64,000 bases of DNA. Origin: Mycolicibacterium rufum. GTDB lineage: Bacteria; Actinomycetota; Actinomycetes; Mycobacteriales; Mycobacteriaceae. A program made the position numbers and the translations under genes. Position 1 is the first letter of the stretch, and each line of letters starts with the position of its first letter. Of this stretch, positions 1 through 15,230 are shown piece by piece. The DNA is taken from positions 2,108,001 to 2,172,000 of the forward strand of contig NZ_CP092427.2 of NCBI RefSeq assembly GCF_022374875.2, given 5' to 3'. The notes beneath the pieces are model-generated. The model was not told where the DNA came from. It saw only the letters and a program-made list of their open reading frames with translations, and made no database searches.

Positions 1-1856
1 GCGTGCACGTACGCGTCCCGCAATCCGTCGTCCCCGTCGTCGTCATCGCCCGCGAGATGGTTGACGTAGGACTGCGCAATGTCGGCTCCAAACGCCTTCT
101 TTGCGTCCTCGAAGGCCGAGCGGATCGCTCGGTCGTCGGCGCGCATCGAGAACTCGCGATAGGTCAGCTTGTCGGACGTGGATGTGCCGGAGATCTCCTG
201 CATGTCGACCCGCCAAACTTCGTCGATCTGCTGGTCGAGCAGGTTGCCGTATCGGGTCGCGTACGTGTCGAGAATTAAGTGCATCTCGCGCTCCGCGTCG
301 GAAAGTGCGCTTGATTGCACACTGTCCATCGCAAGCGCCTGCGCAAGGGCGACGAGCCTTTTGACCGGCCGGGCACCACGCTTGGGCAGGGTCTGCGTCG
401 GCAGTTTGTCCCAGACCGACCACACGGCGGCAGGAATAGCTAAATTGGGTCGTAATTCACGGCCCTCAAGCAAGATCTTCTTCGTTGCAGCGGTGCCGGG
501 CATCTCTTCGAGTTGCCCAGTGAGGTAACGCACGACTTGCCCGGCTGTCGTGCGGTCGAAGAATGGCAGGATGCATTCTACAGCGTTCAACGCTTCATCG
601 CCTGGCACCCGACGTGCAAGCGGGCTGCGCACCATCCGGCCCAAGAGTTGCGTGATATGCGTTTTATCCTTTGCAGGTCGAAACGACACCATCACCTCCG
701 CTCGGGGGCAGTCCCAACCCGTCGAAATCGCGTCCTTGGCGACGAGTACACGCACATCGGGTGTCTCCTGCACGCGTTGCGGTTCGATCCAACTTACGTC
801 CCACTGGCCGAAGTGCTGTCGCGTGTGATCACCGAACACGTGGGCCACGTTGCCGCCGTAAAGTCCCGGCAGCACCTCGGCAATGGTGTCGAGCGCTCTT
901 CCGATCTCGTCCGGAGCCGGCGTGTTCGGCGTCTGTAGGACGAGCAGCGGAACAACCGTCTCGGTGAGTCCTTGGTCCTTCGAGTAGGCAGCCCAACGTT
1001 CGGTAGAGGAGGCGAGCTTTTGCGCGGCCAATTTGACCAGTGTCGTATCGAAGTTCCCGGCCTCGTTTGGGATATTGAGGCTAACAACGTCTTTGACAAG
1101 GCCGGACTCCTGTACCCGATTGGGGTCGACCATCACGGGCGGGAACGCCCGACGGTCCTTGGATGCGTCGGCCTCCTGCATAGCGGTGTCGAAACGGTCG
1201 ATGGTCGCTGAGATACCCCACACGATGGGAATTGGCGGGTACCCAGCATGACCCTGCACGAGACGCCGCACGATCGTCGTCTTGTCGCTGCTGGTTCTGG
1301 TATTGAAGCCGCGGTGTGCCTCGTCGAGCACGAGATACAGCGTGAGGTCTTCGTCGGCGACCGTGTTCGCGATCGTTTCCCAGATCGTGTAGCCCTGCAG
1401 GTCCGGCGCGCCAGGCAGCGCAAGCTGACTCCCGTCCTCAACGTGCCCGCGCGTGAGCTTCGAGCTCTTCGAAAGCTTCTGTGTGTTCAAGAAGTAGACC
1501 CGACCAGGATCGAGCTTCGCTTTCGCGAACGGCGGCTCGATTGCAACGAGGTCTGATGACGTGAACTTCTCGGACGCGTCCATCAGCCGCGTCCGGGTCT
1601 GATCATTCAGATTCGGGTCGTCCGAAAACCACAGCACGACAGCACCTACGTCTGGGTCAATGTCGAACTTCTCTGACCCATAGAACAGCGCCTCGATGAC
1701 GGCAGCTGCCATTACCGTCTTGCCGGCACCCGTCGGCGCTGTGAGGGCAACCGACGTTTCGGCGCCGTCACGTTTCCACGCGGTGCTCGCGCGTTCGAGA
1801 GTCCTCAGGACATCGTCAACGGCTTCTTCTTGATAATCCTTCAGAGTGAACTTCAC
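1..1856 (-). CDS. res: Type III restriction enzyme Res-like subunit (DEAD/DEAH helicase), C-terminus cut by window edge
   Basis: The frame is open without a stop from a GTG at 1856 to the left edge, about 618 residues. Translating it by hand shows SF2 helicase motifs: Walker A APTGAGKT at residues 40-47, LDEAH at 177-181, SAT at 216-218, the Res-typical STGWDCPRAEV segment, and motif VI QLLGRMVR encoded near 630-655. These match the ATP-dependent translocase part of type III Res subunits. Such proteins usually run to roughly 900-1000 residues with a PD-(D/E)XK nuclease at the C-terminus, so the nuclease domain should lie outside the window and cannot be judged here. The GTG overlaps the TGA of the upstream methyltransferase (GTGA), which implies translational coupling and fixes the start. 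Base composition is less GC-rich than after 8.8 kb, as in the three genes upstream, suggesting horizontal origin. Confidence 0.9.
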   Translation of the reverse strand, partial: MKFTLKDYQEEAVDDVLRTLERASTAWKRDGAETSVALTAPTGAGKTVMAAAVIEALFYGSEKFDIDPDVGAVVLWFSDDPNLNDQTRTRLMDASEKFTSSDLVAIEPPFAKAKLDPGRVYFLNTQKLSKSSKLTRGHVEDGSQLALPGAPDLQGYTIWETIANTVADEDLTLYLVLDEAHRGFNTRTSSDKTTIVRRLVQGHAGYPPIPIVWGISATIDRFDTAMQEADASKDRRAFPPVMVDPNRVQESGLVKDVVSLNIPNEAGNFDTTLVKLAAQKLASSTERWAAYSKDQGLTETVVPLLVLQTPNTPAPDEIGRALDTIAEVLPGLYGGNVAHVFGDHTRQHFGQWDVSWIEPQRVQETPDVRVLVAKDAISTGWDCPRAEVMVSFRPAKDKTHITQLLGRMVRSPLARRVPGDEALNAVECILPFFDRTTAGQVVRYLTGQLEEMPGTAATKKILLEGRELRPNLAIPAAVWSVWDKLPTQTLPKRGARPVKRLVALAQALAMDSVQSSALSDAEREMHLILDTYATRYGNLLDQQIDEVWRVDMQEISGTSTSDKLTYREFSMRADDRAIRSAFEDAKKAFGADIAQSYVNHLAGDDDDGDDGLRDAYVH

Positions 1857-4018
1857 AGTGCAGCCCGCCCCGTTTCGATTTCGAAGTTCTGTAGGTACGC
1901 CTCGTACATCCGCACCGGCTCGACGCGGTCGGGAAGCTCGCGCACAACCGCCTCGAACAGACGGTCCTCGTCGGTCACAATGAAGGCCATTCGGATCCCG
2001 TCCTTCGCAGCGATGGCATCGACGAACGCCTCCGACTGGTCAAGGTCTGCAAGGACGCCGTAGGTGTCGGCGACATCCCAGCCGGTCGACATGTCGTTGA
2101 TGCGGCGTCCCTCCGATCCCGCTCGCAGCCAGAGCAATGGCGCAATTTTGACAAACTCGCGGTTAGACGAAACACGAAGCGGGGCTTCGTAAGTGAGGGT
2201 GAAGAATTCGACGTTTTCGTCCAAACCCTCGCTCATGGGAAACTCGTCACTAAACCTGTAATCACCGTTGATTGGATCTCCTTCAGGAGTTAAACCAGTC
2301 GTGGCCGCCCTCACGCGCGGTTTCGTGACGTAATCGCAGATACCCCACTGCTCCCAGGCGGGGTCGCCGGGCCGCAGTCGTTGGGCACGCAACGCAGCCT
2401 GGTCCTCGGCCGCGACCTCGTTGTTGGTTACACTCACCGATCGGCGTCGGCCACCATCCTGCTTGTTCAGTCGCATGGTCGCGTGAGTTGTGGTGCCTGA
2501 ACCTGCGAAGAAATCGACTATGAGTGCGCATGGCTTGTCAGTAACGAAGAAGCGTAGGGCGTCTTCCACAGCGAAGAGAGACTTCGGGAAAGGGAAACTG
2601 CGGCCTGGAATGAAACTGGCGAGGAGCGTAGACCCATACTCAGAAGCGTTGTGGGCGCGCAGTTTCCATTGCGTAGGTGCGATTCGTCGCTGGTCACGGC
2701 GGCCAACCGCTACAATCGAACCATCGTCGGCGCGCCCAGTAATTTCAAATTGGTCCGATAGCACCGCGGCATAAGCACCGTCCGGCAAGTAGTTCACGAC
2801 ATAGCCGTATGCAGTTGGGCGCCCGAGCCGCACACGCCCTTGCTCTATGCGCGTACGCAGTTCAGGTGCAGAGATCTGCCATCGCCCTTCGCTGCCATTC
2901 CTTCGAAGCGGCAGTATTGCAACCAGGCCTTCGCGTGCCGGTGCAACCTGAACACCTTCCTTAAGTGGTTCCCCAACATCTACGATCCTTCGAAGACGCG
3001 GATCCGCATAAATCGGATAGAACATCGACGGGCGATCAGCCCGCGCGGAAGCGGAGCCACGGCGCATCATGGAAGTCCACTCTGGGGTTTCGAGCTCAGG
3101 CTCTTCAGCAAGGTCTTCCGTCGAAGCTTCCTCCGCGCCTGCCGCGGAACTGGACCACTCCGGACCGAGCAGAAGGCGGACCGGCGCGGAGTTTCCGAGC
3201 TGCACGAAGAATATGTACTCATCCGTTCGACGGAATTCGGCACCACGCGAGACTCCCTTGGGATTGATCACGGACGAAATCATCTGAATCCGGGCCTCAG
3301 GAAACATTTGTTCGAGCAGTAGCCCAAGCCGCAAATACTCTTTTTCGTCAATGGTTACGATAAGAACCGAATCATGCGGATTCAGTAACTCTTTCGCAAG
3401 CTTCAGCCGCCGCTCCATGAACGCTAGCCACTTCGAGTGACGATAGAGGTCCTCACCCTCGACATAGTCGTTGTTGTACTTCCAGTCCTTGGCCCCGGTG
3501 TTGTACGGAGGATCGATATAGATCGCGTCGACCTTCGCGCGGTAGGTGAACAGCAGCGTCTGGAGAGCGTGATAGTTCTCAGCGTTGATCACCGTGTGGA
3601 ACGGCTTATCGCCGCCACGTTCGACTTTGCCGGTCGACACGAGGCCGGGATAGATCGGATCGCGGAACTCGGCGACCACCACCAGGTCATCAACTGGCGC
3701 TTCTCCGGTTTCGTCCCCGCCGGCGAGAAGTTCGAGCGATGCCGTGCGAGCCCCGGAGGCACCGTCCGTGATCGCCACCACTCGCCACAGACGGTCATCG
3801 CCGGCGCTCGCTCTTAAGCCTCGTGGGGGGAGGATCCGTACCTTGTCACCCCGCCGCACGGGACGCCCCGGCAACTCGACGGCTTCGGGCACGTGCCGCT
3901 CGAAGTTCAGGCCGAAGGCTCTTCGACTGGAGAGTGCGTCTACCTCGCGGCGTAGATCCTTCGCCAGGTCGGCGTCTTTGCTCTCGAGTTGCCTCAACAG
4001 ATCGTTCAGCCTGGACAC
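1853..4018 (-). CDS. mod: Type III restriction-modification system methylation subunit (Mod-like, N6-adenine/N4-cytosine DNA methyltransferase)
   Basis: A 721-residue protein with the two S-adenosylmethionine methyltransferase landmarks in beta-class order: catalytic motif IV DPPY at 169-172 (YIDPPYNTG) and then the SAM-binding FAGSG at about 504-508. This order and the DPPY tetrapeptide are typical of Mod subunits that methylate adenine N6 on one strand. A long insert between the motifs (about 290-480) probably carries target recognition. The N-terminal 120 residues form a separate segment rich in charged residues. The start is a GTG at 4018 behind a strong AAGGAGG ribosome site. The gene ends in a GTGA overlap with res, so both subunits should be made together. 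It methylates host sites and, with Res, lets unmodified DNA be cut. The target sequence cannot be read from the sequence. Confidence 0.9.
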   Translation of the reverse strand: MSRLNDLLRQLESKDADLAKDLRREVDALSSRRAFGLNFERHVPEAVELPGRPVRRGDKVRILPPRGLRASAGDDRLWRVVAITDGASGARTASLELLAGGDETGEAPVDDLVVVAEFRDPIYPGLVSTGKVERGGDKPFHTVINAENYHALQTLLFTYRAKVDAIYIDPPYNTGAKDWKYNNDYVEGEDLYRHSKWLAFMERRLKLAKELLNPHDSVLIVTIDEKEYLRLGLLLEQMFPEARIQMISSVINPKGVSRGAEFRRTDEYIFFVQLGNSAPVRLLLGPEWSSSAAGAEEASTEDLAEEPELETPEWTSMMRRGSASARADRPSMFYPIYADPRLRRIVDVGEPLKEGVQVAPAREGLVAILPLRRNGSEGRWQISAPELRTRIEQGRVRLGRPTAYGYVVNYLPDGAYAAVLSDQFEITGRADDGSIVAVGRRDQRRIAPTQWKLRAHNASEYGSTLLASFIPGRSFPFPKSLFAVEDALRFFVTDKPCALIVDFFAGSGTTTHATMRLNKQDGGRRRSVSVTNNEVAAEDQAALRAQRLRPGDPAWEQWGICDYVTKPRVRAATTGLTPEGDPINGDYRFSDEFPMSEGLDENVEFFTLTYEAPLRVSSNREFVKIAPLLWLRAGSEGRRINDMSTGWDVADTYGVLADLDQSEAFVDAIAAKDGIRMAFIVTDEDRLFEAVVRELPDRVEPVRMYEAYLQNFEIETGRAAL

Positions 4019-4069
4019 AATCCTCCTTACTGACAGCGCGTGGATTGCATCATTTCAGGCACGCGCCGG

Positions 4070-5596
4070 TCAGTCCCCGTCCGACACGTCGATAGTGCCG
4101 CGCGCGAACGTCGCGACGATTCGTGCGTGTGTTTGGCGCGGTAGCTGACGGGTGCCTGGCTCTCCGAACGGTGTTCCGGGTCGGGCCGGCGCCTCGGCCA
4201 GCAGGTCGTTCAACCCGGGCCGTGTCAACATCAGAAGGCCATGCGTCGCCCGGGTGCACGCGACGGCAAGCCTGCCGAACGACGAGTTGAACGCGTCGAG
4301 TTCAGCCGCACCGTTCAGTGGATGCACCGCGATCGTGATCCCGTTCGTGTTCCCTTGCCACGAATCGACCGTGGACGCAACAACATCCCGGTCAGTCAGG
4401 CCGTGCTTCTCCTTCAGCCTCTCGACGATCTCTGTCGCGTCATCGACTGACTGGTTGCGGGTCGCTAGTATCGCGATCAGCGGATCCGGTTGACCGCCTC
4501 GTGGACACGCCTTATCCCACTTCCCGGTGGGGCGACCCGGCACATCGTTGTCGTACACAGCCGAGACGAGCGACGCTTCTGCGGTGAAGAACTCATCCAC
4601 CAAATACTCAATGAACTCCATCAGCGGCAGATCGATGTCGGCGGCCTCCGGCTCGGCAAGACCATCGATCTCGAGCAGCGTCGGCACACCCGTACCGACC
4701 TGCCTCCAGATCAATGCCACACTGTCGTCCATCGATCCGAGGTCGACCTCGCGATCACCCGGCGCCGCCACGCAGTCGAGCGACGACCATTCCGGGTAGA
4801 ACGCGCGCCACAAGGCGAGATGACCGGCGGACGGGCGCCACACTGTCGGAAGCTCGCGAGACCATGTGCGGGGGTCGTCGTCGTAGTCGGTCGGCCAGGC
4901 CCGATACGGGTTGTAGCCAGGGTCTCCCCGCCATGGGTTCTCGCCTATCTCCAGCGGGGGAAGCTGACCGACGTCACCGACTCCCACCCACAGCGGTGCA
5001 ACCTTCGTCACCTTGTCGAACAAGTGATGCGCGATCTGCCACGCTTCGTCGACGAACAGTACGTCGAACGGCGCACTGCCGTTCGACGCGGCACCGAGAT
5101 GATTGCGGAGGCGCGCCATTTCTCCGATCGCTCCGAAGCGGGCGGCCGTAGCTATGACGACTCTGGCGTCTGGTGGCAGCTGACTGGTCGACGTGACTAC
5201 AGTCGCCGCCGCGAGCACCTCGCTCGGCATCTCCCTGAACGCATCCTGGCTCGCGAGGAGCGCGACGGCATCTCGACCGAGCGACTCCCCGAGCGAGATA
5301 GCCAGTGGCCGTACCTGCTTGTTCGTAAACGCCGTGATCGCAACCCGTCTGCCCTGAGGGTGCTGAGCAGACTCGACCACAAGACGCTTAAGCGCGTACG
5401 ACTTTCCCGCGCCAGCGGACGCTTTCAGCAGGATCCGCTCCATCGGCGAGGTACCTGACAGCATCTCCGCAAGCTCCCGACTCGCCTCGTCGGACACTGC
5501 GTCGTTGAGCGCCGCAGCATCCTCGTGATGCCGGTCGCCAGTCGCCGTGACGAGGGGGTACCTGAAGTAACTGGCTACGTCCGATCCGACGGTCAT
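4070..5596 (-). CDS. SF1 DNA/RNA helicase (UvrD/Dna2-like AAA ATPase) of the putative defence operon
   Basis: This 508-residue protein carries a complete set of superfamily 1 helicase motifs: Walker A ASAGAGKS at 59-66, Walker B LFVDEAW at 180-186, motif III GDVGQLPP at 207-214, motif V-like SWQGNTNG at about 412-419 and motif VI ACTRATHG at about 446-453. The spacing resembles the AAA_12/Dna2-like C-terminal helicase rather than full-length UvrD, and no nuclease motif is visible. Its ATG overlaps the stop of the upstream RecB-like gene (ATGA), and the methyltransferase GTG follows 51 bp after its stop, so it is the second gene of a four-gene operon. In many bacteria a RecB-like Fe-S nuclease and this kind of helicase are fused in one chain; here they are separate and coupled. 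A role as the motor for the upstream nuclease is inference. Confidence 0.8.
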   Translation of the reverse strand: MTVGSDVASYFRYPLVTATGDRHHEDAAALNDAVSDEASRELAEMLSGTSPMERILLKASAGAGKSYALKRLVVESAQHPQGRRVAITAFTNKQVRPLAISLGESLGRDAVALLASQDAFREMPSEVLAAATVVTSTSQLPPDARVVIATAARFGAIGEMARLRNHLGAASNGSAPFDVLFVDEAWQIAHHLFDKVTKVAPLWVGVGDVGQLPPLEIGENPWRGDPGYNPYRAWPTDYDDDPRTWSRELPTVWRPSAGHLALWRAFYPEWSSLDCVAAPGDREVDLGSMDDSVALIWRQVGTGVPTLLEIDGLAEPEAADIDLPLMEFIEYLVDEFFTAEASLVSAVYDNDVPGRPTGKWDKACPRGGQPDPLIAILATRNQSVDDATEIVERLKEKHGLTDRDVVASTVDSWQGNTNGITIAVHPLNGAAELDAFNSSFGRLAVACTRATHGLLMLTRPGLNDLLAEAPARPGTPFGEPGTRQLPRQTHARIVATFARGTIDVSDGD

Positions 5597-8328
5597 TCCA
5601 GATCATCCATAGTCTGGTCGGCAGGCGCCGGCTCCGGTGCGAGTGCGAACGCGTCCCCCGCCGCTGCGTCTGCCGCCGATACTTCGAACGCGTCACTGTC
5701 ACGCACTGGAGGCCAAGTCTCCGGGTTCAATTCACCGCGCGCACGTCGACTCGCGATGAGGTCCGAGAACTCGGCTTCGCTGCGCTCGTGAGGTCTGCAG
5801 CACCAGCGATGTGTCTCCGGGTCCTGGTCGTACGAGTCGAACCGGCAGTCGGGCTTAGGCGCGGACATCTCGTCCTGCCTGGGTTTCGCCACCGACAAGA
5901 TGCTGTTCCTCGCCAGGTTCGAAAACCACGTGAAGTCCGCAACCACGAGACGATCGCCGACTGCAACAGCTGGAACCGTCTGCGGTTGCCACCGCAGCTG
6001 CGTGGCTTCCGTGCCCGTGGCCAGCGGACCGATGCTCAGTCCGCCGATTTTGAAACTGGTGGCGCGCGTCGCGTCAACCCAGACACCAGGCGTCTCGACG
6101 CGCGCCTCACCGTTCTGCATCAGCATCACGACGCGCGACCCGTTCCCGATTCGACGAGACTCGATCTCCAGCTCGAGCGGGTGGACCGACTTGACCGTCG
6201 CGAACGCGACGGACCGGTTCCCGGCGTCAGTCGCCATGTCTTGTGCCGCTTGCGGATTCGACAACCCGAGCAGCTGCGCCGCGCAAGAGCCGTCGCTCTC
6301 GATCATCGGCACGAGTGAGTTGCGCCAGGGCCGATATGTCCGTCCGAATCGGACGAGATCCGACGCGTGCAGCTCCAGCCGCCGACGCCAAACCTGCTGC
6401 GCGTCGGACTCGATCGCTCGATAGACATCTCGCAGCGTCGACGACCCGACTGCGTCCAGCGCGTCGAGCGCACGCTCCAGCGTCTCTGCCTTGTACTGCA
6501 GCTCCTGCAACACAAGAGTTCTGTATAGCTCGGGATCGGCCGGCCCCGAATCGTCATGCTTGCCGCGCTTGCCTACGAGTGCCTCATGAATTGCGTCCGA
6601 AGTGAAATTCGTGAGCCGCGCGCCGGGCGTGTGTTCGGAGGCCTCGATGGCGTCGGCGAGCTGCCGGTGATCGGCGGGGTTGGAGTCGTCAGCCTCTGCC
6701 CAACCGACGAGGTAGTCGAGACGGCCTGAGTTCACCGCGGGTCCCCCGGCGACGAGGTGTCGAGCGAGGACCTCACGGACGTCGATGATCGGACAACGCA
6801 GCTTGAAGGCGCGTGAGCGGTCGTCCTCCAACAGGAGCGCAATCGCAGTCCGCTCCGCCTCGGAGATCGGCCGGGGCACGGTCGCCGGTTCTCCGTCATA
6901 TGTGAGGGCGGGGCGCCCCTGGTCCTTATCCCGCTGCCATCGCAGACGACTGAGTTCGACCCCTGCGAGGTTGTCTGCGATCGATACGAGCACGTCCGCC
7001 GTCGTTCTGTCAGGAACAACTAGGTGCACGGCGTCCGGCGTTCCGCCGGTCGCTGCGTTTCTTTGCTCGCGCATTGCTCGGGTCAGCGTGGAACCCACGC
7101 GGCGCATCACGAGACGTCGTGTTTCAGGTGCCTGCGGATCATCGAACGTCACGAAATCCCAGTCGCCGCGACCGTCAGCCGTAACGCGCTGGACGCCGAT
7201 ACCGTGCACGCCCAGCGCCGCAGCATCCGACTTTGCGAGAACAATGTTGACCGTCCCTGGCAGACCGGCCTGGTCGACGCGGCGCTGGCCAGTGAACTGC
7301 GGGACACCCTTGAGAGTCGCCGCGATACTCGCCGCTGCCGAGGCCGGAACGGGCCCGATGGGGCTCACACCGTCGACGAGCCCTAACGCATGGCGACGGA
7401 TATTCCGCGCCACCCCGATCTCGAGGAGCAGGTCGCCGGGGGCGTCCGAGCGCCGCAGCTCGTCGCGACAGTAAGAGAACAGCGTGCACGTTGTGCATGC
7501 CGACGGATCGAACGCCGCCTCGAGGTGTCCAAGAAGGATCTTCACGTCCTCACCGGGGATATGCGCCGACGCTTCGGCCTCACGCCGCCGCTCCTCGACT
7601 CGGAGCGTCACCTCCTCGGCATAGTCATGCAAATTCTCGACGATGGGCTCAGGCTGGAGGAAAGCATTGCGTGGCACCGCAAGAACGCCAAACGTGTGGA
7701 CGGACATTCCGTCAGGCAACCGCGACCAAGCACGCGCGGACTCGGCGCCGACTGCGACCTGCAGGAAGCCCTTCAACATTCGCGTGTCGTCTATGCGCGA
7801 TCGCACGCGCTCATAGTCCTTCGCATCGCCCATCACGAGCCACGACGTGCTCGGGCTCTCCACCGACGGAGCGACGACCGCGAAATCCGGCTTTACATCC
7901 GTTGCGCGGTTGCCCTCGAAGCCGACGAACGGCACCGCCAACTGGTAGACGAGGGATACAGCTCCGTCATTAGCCGCCCGCGCATGCGCCTGGTTAAGAG
8001 CACGCACCGTCATGTCGGCGCTCACGTGGGCGTCGACGATTACTACTTGCTTGGGCCGAGCGAGACCGAGGGCTCCGACGACGCGCGTCGCAATTTGGGC
8101 GGCGAAGCTCTCGTTCCGCACAAGCCGCTCGAACGTGATCGCCCGCATCCAACGCGCCTGCGGGATGGACCCAGACGTGTCCGGAGACCCAGCTGCCTTC
8201 GCGAGGTTCCGACGCGTCATACCGGTAATTAGGGGGTCGGTGCCACGAAACCGTGCGCATGCGGCGTGTGATGACGCGGCGATGGCACTTGAACCGCCTC
8301 CCGCAACTTCGACGGCCTTCGCGCTCAC
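5593..8328 (-). CDS. RecB/AddB-like PD-(D/E)XK nuclease with Fe-S cluster cysteines, first gene of the putative defence operon
   Basis: A large (911-residue) protein with a recognisable N-terminal nuclease. With the GTG at 8328 as residue 1, PD is at 147-148, followed by WLVMGDAKDY with the D-A-K triad at 168-170, a PD-(D/E)XK signature. Three cysteines in a C-x2-C-x5-C pattern sit at 278, 281 and 287, and a lone upstream cysteine is at 24. One Cys before and three after the nuclease core is the Fe-S arrangement known from AddB, Dna2 and Cas4. Retaining Cys24 argues for a start upstream of 8257. GTG 8328 is preferred, though the frame stays open to 8463. Residues 300-850 have no motif I recognise. 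Near the C-terminus a C/H cluster (Cys, His, Cys-Cys, His) could bind zinc. The stop overlaps the helicase start. Confidence 0.75.
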   Translation of the reverse strand: MSAKAVEVAGGGSSAIAASSHAACARFRGTDPLITGMTRRNLAKAAGSPDTSGSIPQARWMRAITFERLVRNESFAAQIATRVVGALGLARPKQVVIVDAHVSADMTVRALNQAHARAANDGAVSLVYQLAVPFVGFEGNRATDVKPDFAVVAPSVESPSTSWLVMGDAKDYERVRSRIDDTRMLKGFLQVAVGAESARAWSRLPDGMSVHTFGVLAVPRNAFLQPEPIVENLHDYAEEVTLRVEERRREAEASAHIPGEDVKILLGHLEAAFDPSACTTCTLFSYCRDELRRSDAPGDLLLEIGVARNIRRHALGLVDGVSPIGPVPASAAASIAATLKGVPQFTGQRRVDQAGLPGTVNIVLAKSDAAALGVHGIGVQRVTADGRGDWDFVTFDDPQAPETRRLVMRRVGSTLTRAMREQRNAATGGTPDAVHLVVPDRTTADVLVSIADNLAGVELSRLRWQRDKDQGRPALTYDGEPATVPRPISEAERTAIALLLEDDRSRAFKLRCPIIDVREVLARHLVAGGPAVNSGRLDYLVGWAEADDSNPADHRQLADAIEASEHTPGARLTNFTSDAIHEALVGKRGKHDDSGPADPELYRTLVLQELQYKAETLERALDALDAVGSSTLRDVYRAIESDAQQVWRRRLELHASDLVRFGRTYRPWRNSLVPMIESDGSCAAQLLGLSNPQAAQDMATDAGNRSVAFATVKSVHPLELEIESRRIGNGSRVVMLMQNGEARVETPGVWVDATRATSFKIGGLSIGPLATGTEATQLRWQPQTVPAVAVGDRLVVADFTWFSNLARNSILSVAKPRQDEMSAPKPDCRFDSYDQDPETHRWCCRPHERSEAEFSDLIASRRARGELNPETWPPVRDSDAFEVSAADAAAGDAFALAPEPAPADQTMDDLE

Positions 8329-12084: not shown

Positions 12085-12317
12085 GCCCCCATTGTGCTGA
12101 CCCGGCCGACAGACAGACGCGGGCGACGATCATCGTCACCAACCGATCACCGGCGCCCGGGCACGCAAGAACGTATTGACCTGCACGCCAACACGATCAA
12201 ACGGGCACGACGCCGCACCCTCGGAGCCGGGTGCCGGACCGGCCATTCCCGCCGCTCACAGGGCCGCGTCCGAGTACCGTAGACGCACTACTCGCACCTC
12301 ACCGAAGGACGCAGGCG

Positions 12318-15230
12318 ATGGCGGGGGAGATCGCGTTCGAGCTGGCAGCCGCCGGTTTCACCGACGCCAACGAGGTGGGCCGGGGCGGTGGCGGCGTCGT
12401 CTACCGCTGCCATCAGACCTCCCTGGGGCGAACCGTCGCGATCAAGGTGCTCGCCTCCCATCTCGACGAGGACGACCGCGAGCGTTTCCTGCGCGAGGGC
12501 TACGCGATGGGCGCGCTGTCCGGCCACCCCAACATCGTGAACATCCTGCAGGTCGGCATGACCGAACGGGACCGGCCGTTCATCGTCATGCCCTATCACG
12601 CGCGTGGGTCGCTCGCCGACCAGGTGCGACGGGAGGGCCGTATCCCGTGGCCCGACGTGCTGCGCATCGGGGTGAAACTCTGCGGCGCGCTCGAAACCGC
12701 CCACCGCACAGGCACTTTGCACCGCGACATCAAACCCGGCAACATCCTCGTCAACGACTACGGCGACCCCCAGCTCAGCGACTTCGGCACCGCGCGCATC
12801 GTCGGCGGATACAAGACAGTGACCGGCTTCTTCACCGGCACGCTGTCCTACACCGCGCCCGAGGTGCTCACGGGCAAGCCTCCGACCGTCGAGGCGGACG
12901 TCTACTCCCTCGGCGCCACCCTGTACGCGCTGATCGCCGGCCAGGCCGCCCACGAACGCCACACCGGCGAGGAGCTGATCGCCCACTACCTGCGCATCAC
13001 CTCCCAGCCGGTGCCCGACCTGCGGGACCGCGGAATCCCCACCGACGTGTGCGCGACGATCGAGAAGTCCATGTCCCTCGACCCGGCCGAGCGGTTCGGC
13101 ACAGCGGCCGACTTCGGCCGCGCCCTGCAGGAGGCGCAGCGCCACAACGGCCTGACCGCGGACGCGATGGCGATCGGCGAGCCCGCCCCCGCCGCCCCCG
13201 CGCCGCCCGACGGCACGCAGGCTCTCCCCCTGTCCGGGCCGTCCGACACGTCCGTCGTGCCGCCCGCGCCGCCGCCACCCCCGCCCCCCAGGCCCGCCGA
13301 GCCGGCGCCGCCACCCGACCGGCCGTCGGCTGCTCCCCCGGCGAAGAACCGCAAAACCGTCATCGCCCTCGCCGCCGCAGCCGCCGTGGCCCTGCTGGTG
13401 ATCGCCGGCGTCGCGATCATCGCGACATCCCGGGACACGCCCAGCTCCTCGCCGAGCGCGGCCCCGCCGGCCCGGCCGACGGTCGAGGCGCAGGCCGGCT
13501 GGCGCCCGATCAGCGATGCCCGCTCGGCCCTTGACGCGGCGGCCGCCACCCAGTCCGACGGCACGATCTGGATCTTCGGCGGCATGGGCGCCGACAGCCG
13601 CGTCAGCGGCGCCCACGAGGGGTACGACCCGGCGATCGACAGCTGGAAGGGCGGCGACGCCCTGCCCGTTCCGGTGGCGCACGCGATGGCGGTGACGTGG
13701 CAGGACACCCCCGTCGTGCTCGGGGGCTGGCGTACTGCGGGGGCCGACGCGAAGGTCGCCACCGACGCGGTGTGGCGGGTGGTCAACAGCCGCTGGGTGC
13801 CGTTGCCGCCGCTGCCGCAGCCGCGCGCCGCGGCCGCGGCCGCCGTGGTCGGCGACCGCATCATCGTGACCGGCGGGGTGGATGCCGGCGGCAAGGTGCT
13901 CGACTCCACTGAGGTGTTCGACGGCACCGGCTGGAAACCGGGCGCATCGATGCCCACCGCGCGTCAGCTGCTGGCCGCGGCCTCGGACGGCAGACGGGTC
14001 TACGCGCTCGGCGGCACGAACGGCACGACGGACCTGGCGACCGTCGAGGCCTACGACCCGGCCGCCGACTCCTGGGCCGCCCTGCCCGCGCTGTCGGCAC
14101 CGCGCAGCGATCTCGGCGCCGCAGTCACCGACGGCCGGCTGGTGGCCGTCGGCGGCGCCACCGCGGGCCGCCCCGTGAAGACGGTGTCGTCGCTCGACCT
14201 GGCGACCGCGACGTGGACCGACCTGCCCGACCTCGCCACCGCCCGCCACGGGCTGGCCGTGGCCGCGGTCGGCAAGTCGGTGTACGCGATCGGCGGATCG
14301 ACCGGCACCGGGGACGGGCAGGTGACGTCGTCCGCCGAGGCGCTCAAGCTCGCGCCGCGCACCCCGCAGCCCGCGGCGCAGTGGCGGTCGCTGCCCGACG
14401 CGCCCACCCCGCGGCTGATGACGGCGTTCACCGCGCTCGACGGCAAGATCTGGAACATCGGCGGCATCCGCGACGGCGAGACGCTGCAGACCGTCGAGAC
14501 CTACGACCCCGGCACCAAGCAGTGGCAGCCCCAGCCGTCCCTGCCGATCCCGCTGAACCACGCGGTGGCGGCGACCTACCGCGGCGAGGTCGTGGTGATC
14601 GGCGGCGCCACCGACACCATCACCCACGCGTCGGACAAAGTGTTCGCGTTCCGCGACAACGCCTGGGTCGAACTGCCCAGCCTGCAGCACGCGCGCGCAG
14701 CCCCCGCTGCCGCGGTGGTCGGCGACAAGCTCGTCGTGGTCGGCGGTCAGAACGACAAGCAGATCGTGCCGCAGACCGAGGTCTTCGACGGGACATCGTG
14801 GACGTCGGCAGCCGACTTGCCCACTCCCCGTGAGCATCTCGCGGCGGTGTCCGACGGCGTCTACGTCTACGCCGTCGGCGGCCGGTTCCTCAGCGCCGAC
14901 GAGAACTCGGCGGCCTTCGATCGGTTCGACCCCGCGTCCGGGAACTGGGAAACGTTGCCGGACATGCCGACTCCGCGCGGCAGCTTCGGTGCGGCGTTCA
15001 TCGACGGCCGCATCGTGGTGGTCGGCGGCGAGGAGCCGACGCGGGTGCTGCCCACCGTCGAGATGTACGACATCGCCAACCGCACGTGGAGCACCCAGGC
15101 GCCGATCAACACCCCGGTGCACGGGGAGGTGGTCGCGGCGGTCGGCTCTACGGTCTACGTGATCGGCGGCGCCGACCGCCCGACCCACGAGGGGCCGGTG
15201 GCGACGGTCGAGGCGCTGGACTTCACGTAG
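12318..15230 (+). CDS. PknK-type transmembrane Ser/Thr protein kinase with extracellular Kelch propellers
   Basis: The start at 12318 is chosen because an AAGGA ribosome site lies just upstream; a longer frame begins at 12231. The protein is about 970 residues. Residues 15-275 form a kinase with a glycine loop (GRGGGGVVY), Lys43, HRD at 135-137, DFG at 155-157 and APE at about 180-182. The wording is close to the N-terminal kinase of mycobacterial PknK. A proline/alanine-rich juxtamembrane segment precedes a single membrane helix at about 347-369. After this, twelve Kelch-like blades with GG pairs (FGGMG, LGGWR, TGGVD, LGGTN and eight more) fill residues 400-970, enough for two six-bladed propellers. 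The domain should face outside and could sense a wall or carbohydrate ligand. The 3' end overlaps the convergent FHA gene by 8 bases. Confidence 0.88.
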   Translation: MAGEIAFELAAAGFTDANEVGRGGGGVVYRCHQTSLGRTVAIKVLASHLDEDDRERFLREGYAMGALSGHPNIVNILQVGMTERDRPFIVMPYHARGSLADQVRREGRIPWPDVLRIGVKLCGALETAHRTGTLHRDIKPGNILVNDYGDPQLSDFGTARIVGGYKTVTGFFTGTLSYTAPEVLTGKPPTVEADVYSLGATLYALIAGQAAHERHTGEELIAHYLRITSQPVPDLRDRGIPTDVCATIEKSMSLDPAERFGTAADFGRALQEAQRHNGLTADAMAIGEPAPAAPAPPDGTQALPLSGPSDTSVVPPAPPPPPPPRPAEPAPPPDRPSAAPPAKNRKTVIALAAAAAVALLVIAGVAIIATSRDTPSSSPSAAPPARPTVEAQAGWRPISDARSALDAAAATQSDGTIWIFGGMGADSRVSGAHEGYDPAIDSWKGGDALPVPVAHAMAVTWQDTPVVLGGWRTAGADAKVATDAVWRVVNSRWVPLPPLPQPRAAAAAAVVGDRIIVTGGVDAGGKVLDSTEVFDGTGWKPGASMPTARQLLAAASDGRRVYALGGTNGTTDLATVEAYDPAADSWAALPALSAPRSDLGAAVTDGRLVAVGGATAGRPVKTVSSLDLATATWTDLPDLATARHGLAVAAVGKSVYAIGGSTGTGDGQVTSSAEALKLAPRTPQPAAQWRSLPDAPTPRLMTAFTALDGKIWNIGGIRDGETLQTVETYDPGTKQWQPQPSLPIPLNHAVAATYRGEVVVIGGATDTITHASDKVFAFRDNAWVELPSLQHARAAPAAAVVGDKLVVVGGQNDKQIVPQTEVFDGTSWTSAADLPTPREHLAAVSDGVYVYAVGGRFLSADENSAAFDRFDPASGNWETLPDMPTPRGSFGAAFIDGRIVVVGGEEPTRVLPTVEMYDIANRTWSTQAPINTPVHGEVVAAVGSTVYVIGGADRPTHEGPVATVEALDFT

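Follow-up and report, generated by a model that had tools for sequence, protein, structure and literature searches.

A predicted two-protein DNA2-like nuclease-helicase that accompanies type III and type ISP restriction enzymes

A nuclease and a helicase beside a restriction-modification pair

By ORF calls, the first 8 kb of the Mycolicibacterium rufum sequence that we analyzed (the window: 64,000 nucleotides, G000:C1:2108001-2172000, plus strand, from a 6.1-Mb genome) hold four genes on one strand, the minus strand, which we call Nuc, Hel, Mod, and Res. The last two form a type III pair, and the question that the locus raises is what a nuclease and a helicase are doing in front of them. Our preferred answer, to which we give a probability of about 0.5, is that Nuc and Hel are a predicted two-protein DNA2-like nuclease-helicase in a predicted operon with Mod-Res, and that they likely unwind and degrade DNA that the restriction complex has recognized as unmethylated. 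The features of the locus are as follows.

Nuc: 5593..8328, minus strand, open reading frame of 911 aa
Nuc residues 6-293: 7450..8313, minus strand, predicted Cas4/MGME1/DNA2-type nuclease, from fold matches
Nuc residues 353-640: 6409..7272, minus strand, predicted RNase T/T7 polymerase exonuclease-like domain, from fold matches
Hel: 4070..5596, minus strand, 508 aa, DNA2/UPF1-like SF1 helicase (SF1B)
Hel-Mod spacer: 4019..4069, minus strand, 51 bp, with the ribosome-binding-site-like AAGGAGG immediately 5' of Mod
Mod: 1853..4018, minus strand, 721 aa, type III DNA methyltransferase (PF01555, PADLOC PDLC03645)
Res: 1..1856, minus strand, type III restriction subunit (PF04851), running off the window edge with 618 codons inside

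The complete Res has 860 aa and extends beyond the window (L002:14274-16856 in the genome). When the sequence was read again, the layout given in the preliminary description proved correct: four minus-strand genes, an ATGA overlap at Nuc/Hel, a GTGA overlap at Mod/Res, and a 51-bp gap at the remaining junction. Its gene identities are likewise borne out by Pfam and PADLOC matches, motifs, and predicted folds. The G+C content is 59 to 65% over the first 8 kb versus 65 to 73% over the remaining window.

Predicted folds of Nuc and Hel

Nuc had zero matches in Pfam, PADLOC-DB, and NCBIfam at an E value of 0.1, and its nearest named homologue is a Mycolicibacterium protein (84%). The predicted structure (pLDDT 87.8) consists of an N-terminal PD-(D/E)XK nuclease, an RNase T-like middle, and a beta-rich C-terminal part containing Cys and His residues. 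The middle domain appears to have lost its acidic DxE pair, as read off the aligned ranges. The motifs of Nuc are P-D148, D168-A-K170, and the cysteines C24, C278, C281, and C287; among 54 sequences the last three cysteines are invariant and C24 is present in at least 90%. The spacing of these four cysteines is a predicted Fe-S pattern, as in the nucleases of DNA2 and Bad (discussed below).

Hel matches PF13604 (E = 2.7e-7) and carries the motifs GAGKS, VDEAW, GDVGQLPP, TVDSWQG, and CTRAT. The best folds for its predicted structure are Dna2 and UPF1, headed by the Dna2 entry 5ean of the PDB (E = 5.4e-16), and its matches to the PADLOC GajB profiles are weak (best, 14.9 bits). By their predicted folds, Nuc and Hel together would amount to a DNA2 divided between two genes.

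Mod, Res, and a variant nuclease motif

Mod matches PF01555 (E = 3.6e-16) and, across residues 1-717, PADLOC PDLC03645 (E = 3.1e-276); IDPPYNTG at 158 is followed by FAGSGTT at 494, the motif order of a type III methyltransferase. Res matches PF04851 (E = 1.7e-13), has the motifs APTGAGKT, DEAH, SAT, and LLGRMVR, and is, as expected of type III systems, an SF2 helicase-like ATPase adjoining Mod, here with a 4-bp overlap. The preliminary description had called the motifs of all four proteins intact, and this stands for Nuc, Hel, Mod, and the helicase part of Res, but not for the Res nuclease, which reads PDF...VDPHG instead of PD...(D/E)XK, with a histidine in place of the catalytic lysine.

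It is conceivable that the operon Res has lost its own nuclease and serves as a translocase only, leaving Nuc as the sole cutter. DPH indeed replaces (D/E)XK in all 16 operon Res proteins compared, whereas phage P1 Res has PDF...ETK. Yet DPH is found just as well in 7 of 7 Res proteins without Nuc and in 119 of 120 listed Res homologues (116 by pattern and 3 in the printed tails, with P0182 unseen), a lysine about 10 residues past it is kept in 15 of the 16 and might serve, and the type ISP enzymes that partner the pair elsewhere keep a D...QCK nuclease motif. We regard this loss as very unlikely. Because DPH also occurs in Nuc-less Res, it is a trait of the Res family and gives no sign of dependence on Nuc; going by sequence, this widespread family may have a variant cutting site or may not cut. 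Since (D/E)XK is missing and a variant site is possible, we call Mod-Res type III-like as to its nuclease.

Distribution of the pair and its partners

Nuc and Hel form an obligate pair. In a sample of 394 class genomes, 7 carry Nuc at full length (G146 adds a remnant) and the identical 7 carry full-length Hel, the remaining 66 genomes with a Hel match holding weak partial matches only. In all 42 loci taken from a collection of 84,980 species, each of them from Actinomycetota, Hel comes immediately after Nuc, and the two are separate genes in the window and in each of these loci (a contig end truncates Hel in L020, and Nuc is disrupted in L043). Res proteins of the window's family also occur in 7 of the 394 class genomes, 4 of them shared with Nuc (Fisher p = 1.2e-6, uncorrected for relatedness). 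The Nuc gene is sometimes lost, as it is split over two frames in Actinopolyspora xinjiangensis (L043) and survives as a short stop-bearing remnant at G146:C1:161392-161619.

We compared 46 distinct loci, namely, the window, the 42 loci, the Rhodococcus plasmid L086, G211, and G072. G365, G375, G176, and G128, whose contigs match those of L017, L008, L045, and L040 in length, were dropped as duplicates, and a second Rhodococcus plasmid, p52, which has Nuc and Res the same distance apart, was left out of the count. The contexts are as follows.

Type III Mod-Res directly after Hel (18 loci): window, L004-L010, L013, L015, L017, L018, L024, L026, L033, L042, L086, G211
Type ISP enzyme divergent upstream (10 loci): L027, L029, L030, L031, L034, L036 (cut by contig end), L037, L041, L045, G072
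Type ISP enzyme collinear downstream (1 locus): L016
Neither partner (15 loci): L011, L012, L014, L019, L021, L022, L023, L025, L028, L032, L035, L038, L040, L043, L044
Cut by contig end (2 loci): L020, L039

The pair thus accompanies ATP-dependent restriction enzymes of two classes, being found beside type III in some loci and type ISP in others, and also stands alone. The seven class-sample genomes divide into 4 type III, 2 type ISP, and 1 neither. The type ISP partner is a full single-chain enzyme (PF18135, PF22240, and PF13156); any match to PF18135 is found in 72 of the 394 class genomes. In the neither-partner genomes, matches to type ISP, N6_Mtase, and N6_N4_Mtase sit off Nuc's contig or, in one, 2 Mb away. 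Other defense genes that neighbor the pair include an SLFN helicase, ZacA, and GmrSD.

The preliminary description had inferred a combined system whose novelty would fail if such nuclease/helicase genes occurred mostly without Mod/Res, and this objection applies by half. Mod-Res does lie directly downstream in 18 of the 46 loci, but the pair is without Mod/Res in 26 of the 44 informative ones (11 type ISP and 15 neither), which makes the four-gene set one arrangement among several. What is new is not a fixed four-gene system.

As the solo loci make clear, the pair can persist without a restriction partner, and this keeps alive the reading of Nuc-Hel as a self-contained two-gene defense or DNA-end-sensing system, somewhat like Hachiman or Gabija, that shares islands with restriction systems. 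Such loci make up 15 of the 44 informative ones, some adjoin Zac genes (L028) or an AAA_15 ATPase and a dynamin-like gene (L032), and Hachiman, going by part of its published description, is also a two-gene nuclease-helicase defense. However, other solo loci lie outside islands among ordinary genes (glycoside hydrolase, pirin, and FMN oxidoreductase), and wherever Mod and Res are present their gene order is constant and operon-like. Order, strand, and spacing relative to the partner are conserved, with Mod and Res overlapping by 4 bp in all 15 relatives measured and a divergent type ISP gene in 10 of 11 loci. We consider a stand-alone system possible, if on the unlikely side.

The housekeeping surroundings of some solo copies also speak for the proposal that Nuc-Hel is a repair unit, mending or resecting host breaks, including those from accidental self-restriction, instead of an attack enzyme. 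DNA2-type enzymes do function in repair, according to passages of a paper on one of them (PMC7430649), but the patchy occurrence of the pair in 7 of 394 class genomes and the presence of an additional TM0106 family gene in the M. rufum genome make a repair role improbable.

Partner history and UvrD-Cas4

On a Nuc tree of 43 rows, the three contexts require 5 changes versus 19.2 in shuffles; the associations have therefore long been kept and have few independent origins. L016 is placed away from the other type ISP rows and differs from them in gene order, and both points favor a second event in which the pair was joined with type ISP. At this Williamsia locus, two consecutive type ISP genes directly follow Hel (L016:14353-22700), the second running off the stretch examined.

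Beyond Res in M. rufum lies a further helicase-nuclease gene.

UvrD-Cas4: L002:11307-14240 (G000:C1:2104307-2107240, outside the window), 977 aa, UvrD helicase carrying a PD-(D/E)XK domain at its C terminus and a CxxCx5C end, convergent with Res and 33 bp off

This gene has the published UvrD-Cas4 build, a UvrD fused to a Cas4-like nuclease, which Nuc and Hel do not. Of the 18 type III loci, 10 have UvrD-Cas4 near the pair, in one of two positions (the L004 sequence ends too soon past Res to show it), and there is none in the type ISP and solo stretches examined or in four Nuc-less plasmid loci. A 31% UvrD-Cas4-like gene near the Nuc-less Mod-Res of G059 (L091) counts against a strict link; on the Res tree, which carries a long-branch warning elsewhere, G059 nests within the group with Nuc.

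Across 17 type III loci, Nuc, Hel, and UvrD-Cas4 change together: the correlations among their identities (45 or 136 pairs) are 0.93 to 0.96, compared with 0.67 for Nuc-Res, 0.25 for Nuc-Mod, and 0.59 for Res-UvrD-Cas4, all descriptive values because the sequences are related. Two Gordonia loci (L005 and L006) are instructive: their Nuc, Hel, and UvrD-Cas4 are 71 to 80% like those of the window but their Res just 56%, and this Res is 82 to 83% like that of plasmid L086 while Nuc is 50 to 52% like its L086 counterpart. Thus, Mod-Res has been swapped over a steadier Nuc-Hel background.

Proposed mechanism

Enzymes of types III and ISP modify asymmetric sites by methylating a single strand. They also use ATP-driven long-range communication, as described in portions of two papers (PMC11142916 and PMC4666363). 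A DNA2-like motor-nuclease moving 5' to 3' would follow naturally on a break made in this way, and we infer that the pair degrades DNA after restriction. Mod would mark host DNA, and Mod-Res would detect unmarked sites and then make or signal a break. Hel, an SF1B motor with an expected 5'-to-3' polarity, would load at the end or flap and pass single strands to Nuc, making the cut irreversible. UvrD-Cas4, of expected opposite polarity and 33 bp past Res, may attack the other strand.

A bolder proposal, which we put forward tentatively and think rather unlikely, is a new restriction class in which an exchangeable Mod-Res or type ISP recognizer drives a fixed shredding core (the split DNA2-like pair, joined by UvrD-Cas4 in many type III loci), such that two motors of opposite polarity would consume both strands of unmethylated DNA.

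Relation to known systems

Although Mod and Res are a type III pair, to our knowledge neither the type III nor the type ISP class, as described, includes a DNA2-like pair. AddAB and AdnAB carry their nuclease at the C terminus of a helicase-type chain, whereas that of Nuc is N-terminal and Nuc itself matches no helicase in Pfam. DISARM differs in its DUF1998 (PF09369); in agreement with the preliminary description, this domain had no match in Nuc, Hel, Mod, or Res at an E value of 0.1. The TM0106 family (TIGR03491) is closer in that Hel matches the TM0106 helicase part with a probability of 97.2 in profile comparison, but TM0106 is a single chain and Nuc matches its nuclease part with a probability of only 0.8.

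That other nuclease-helicases lie beside type III genes is already known (UvrD-Cas4, 2017; Bad, 2020). Bad, from Geobacillus stearothermophilus, was described in 2020 as a single-chain bacterial DNA2-like 5'-3' helicase-nuclease that adjoins a type III-like Mod in Geobacilli, and its authors suggest that it represents a new restriction-enzyme class (PMC7430649). By that description, as far as available, the features in common with our pair, on our side by prediction, are an N-terminal Fe-S RecB-family nuclease, a helicase of SF1B type, a further central domain (RNase T-like in Nuc), and the type III-like Mod neighbor; it differs in being one chain instead of two genes, and the available part of the paper (PMC7430649) mentions no neighboring type III Res, type ISP enzyme, or UvrD-Cas4. 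The UvrD-Cas4 fusion was reported in 2017 beside type III Mod/Res and was proposed to be ancillary to several defense pathways (PMC5704561, in part). It, too, combines a helicase with a Cas4-like nuclease adjoining Mod and Res, but Nuc-Hel forms a unit of its own, has a DNA2/UPF1-type helicase, and is absent from the available UvrD-Cas4 description (PMC5704561). In the open-licence literature we found no published description of the split pair, its type ISP link, or its solo form. Taken with Bad and UvrD-Cas4, our results suggest that units of a nuclease and an SF1 helicase became linked to type III systems on more than one occasion.

Accounts of restriction usually stop at the cut. A dedicated DNA2-like unit available for adoption by various ATP-dependent restriction enzymes would bring post-cut degradation into the system, and it would allow a direct genetic test of the role of a bacterial DNA2-like enzyme.

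Other genes around the M. rufum locus

Beyond Res, the order is the 977-aa UvrD gene, IS21, a 322-aa protein, an SMC-like ATPase, an HNH protein, and TerY with PP2C. The IS21-type istA/istB (L002:8548-11035), possibly a later insertion, separates the UvrD gene from the SMC-like pair. This pair (L002:4872-8455), an 819-aa SMC-like ATPase with the 322-aa protein, which has no Pfam match, is on the same strand as Res, with the UvrD gene and IS21 intervening. TerY (PADLOC PDLC02224, E = 7.3e-117) and PP2C form a TerY-P-like defense set (L002:901-2541) 12 kb past Res. Within the window, on the plus strand at 12231-15230, a 999-aa open frame would, from the look of its sequence, encode a serine/threonine kinase with Kelch-like repeats.
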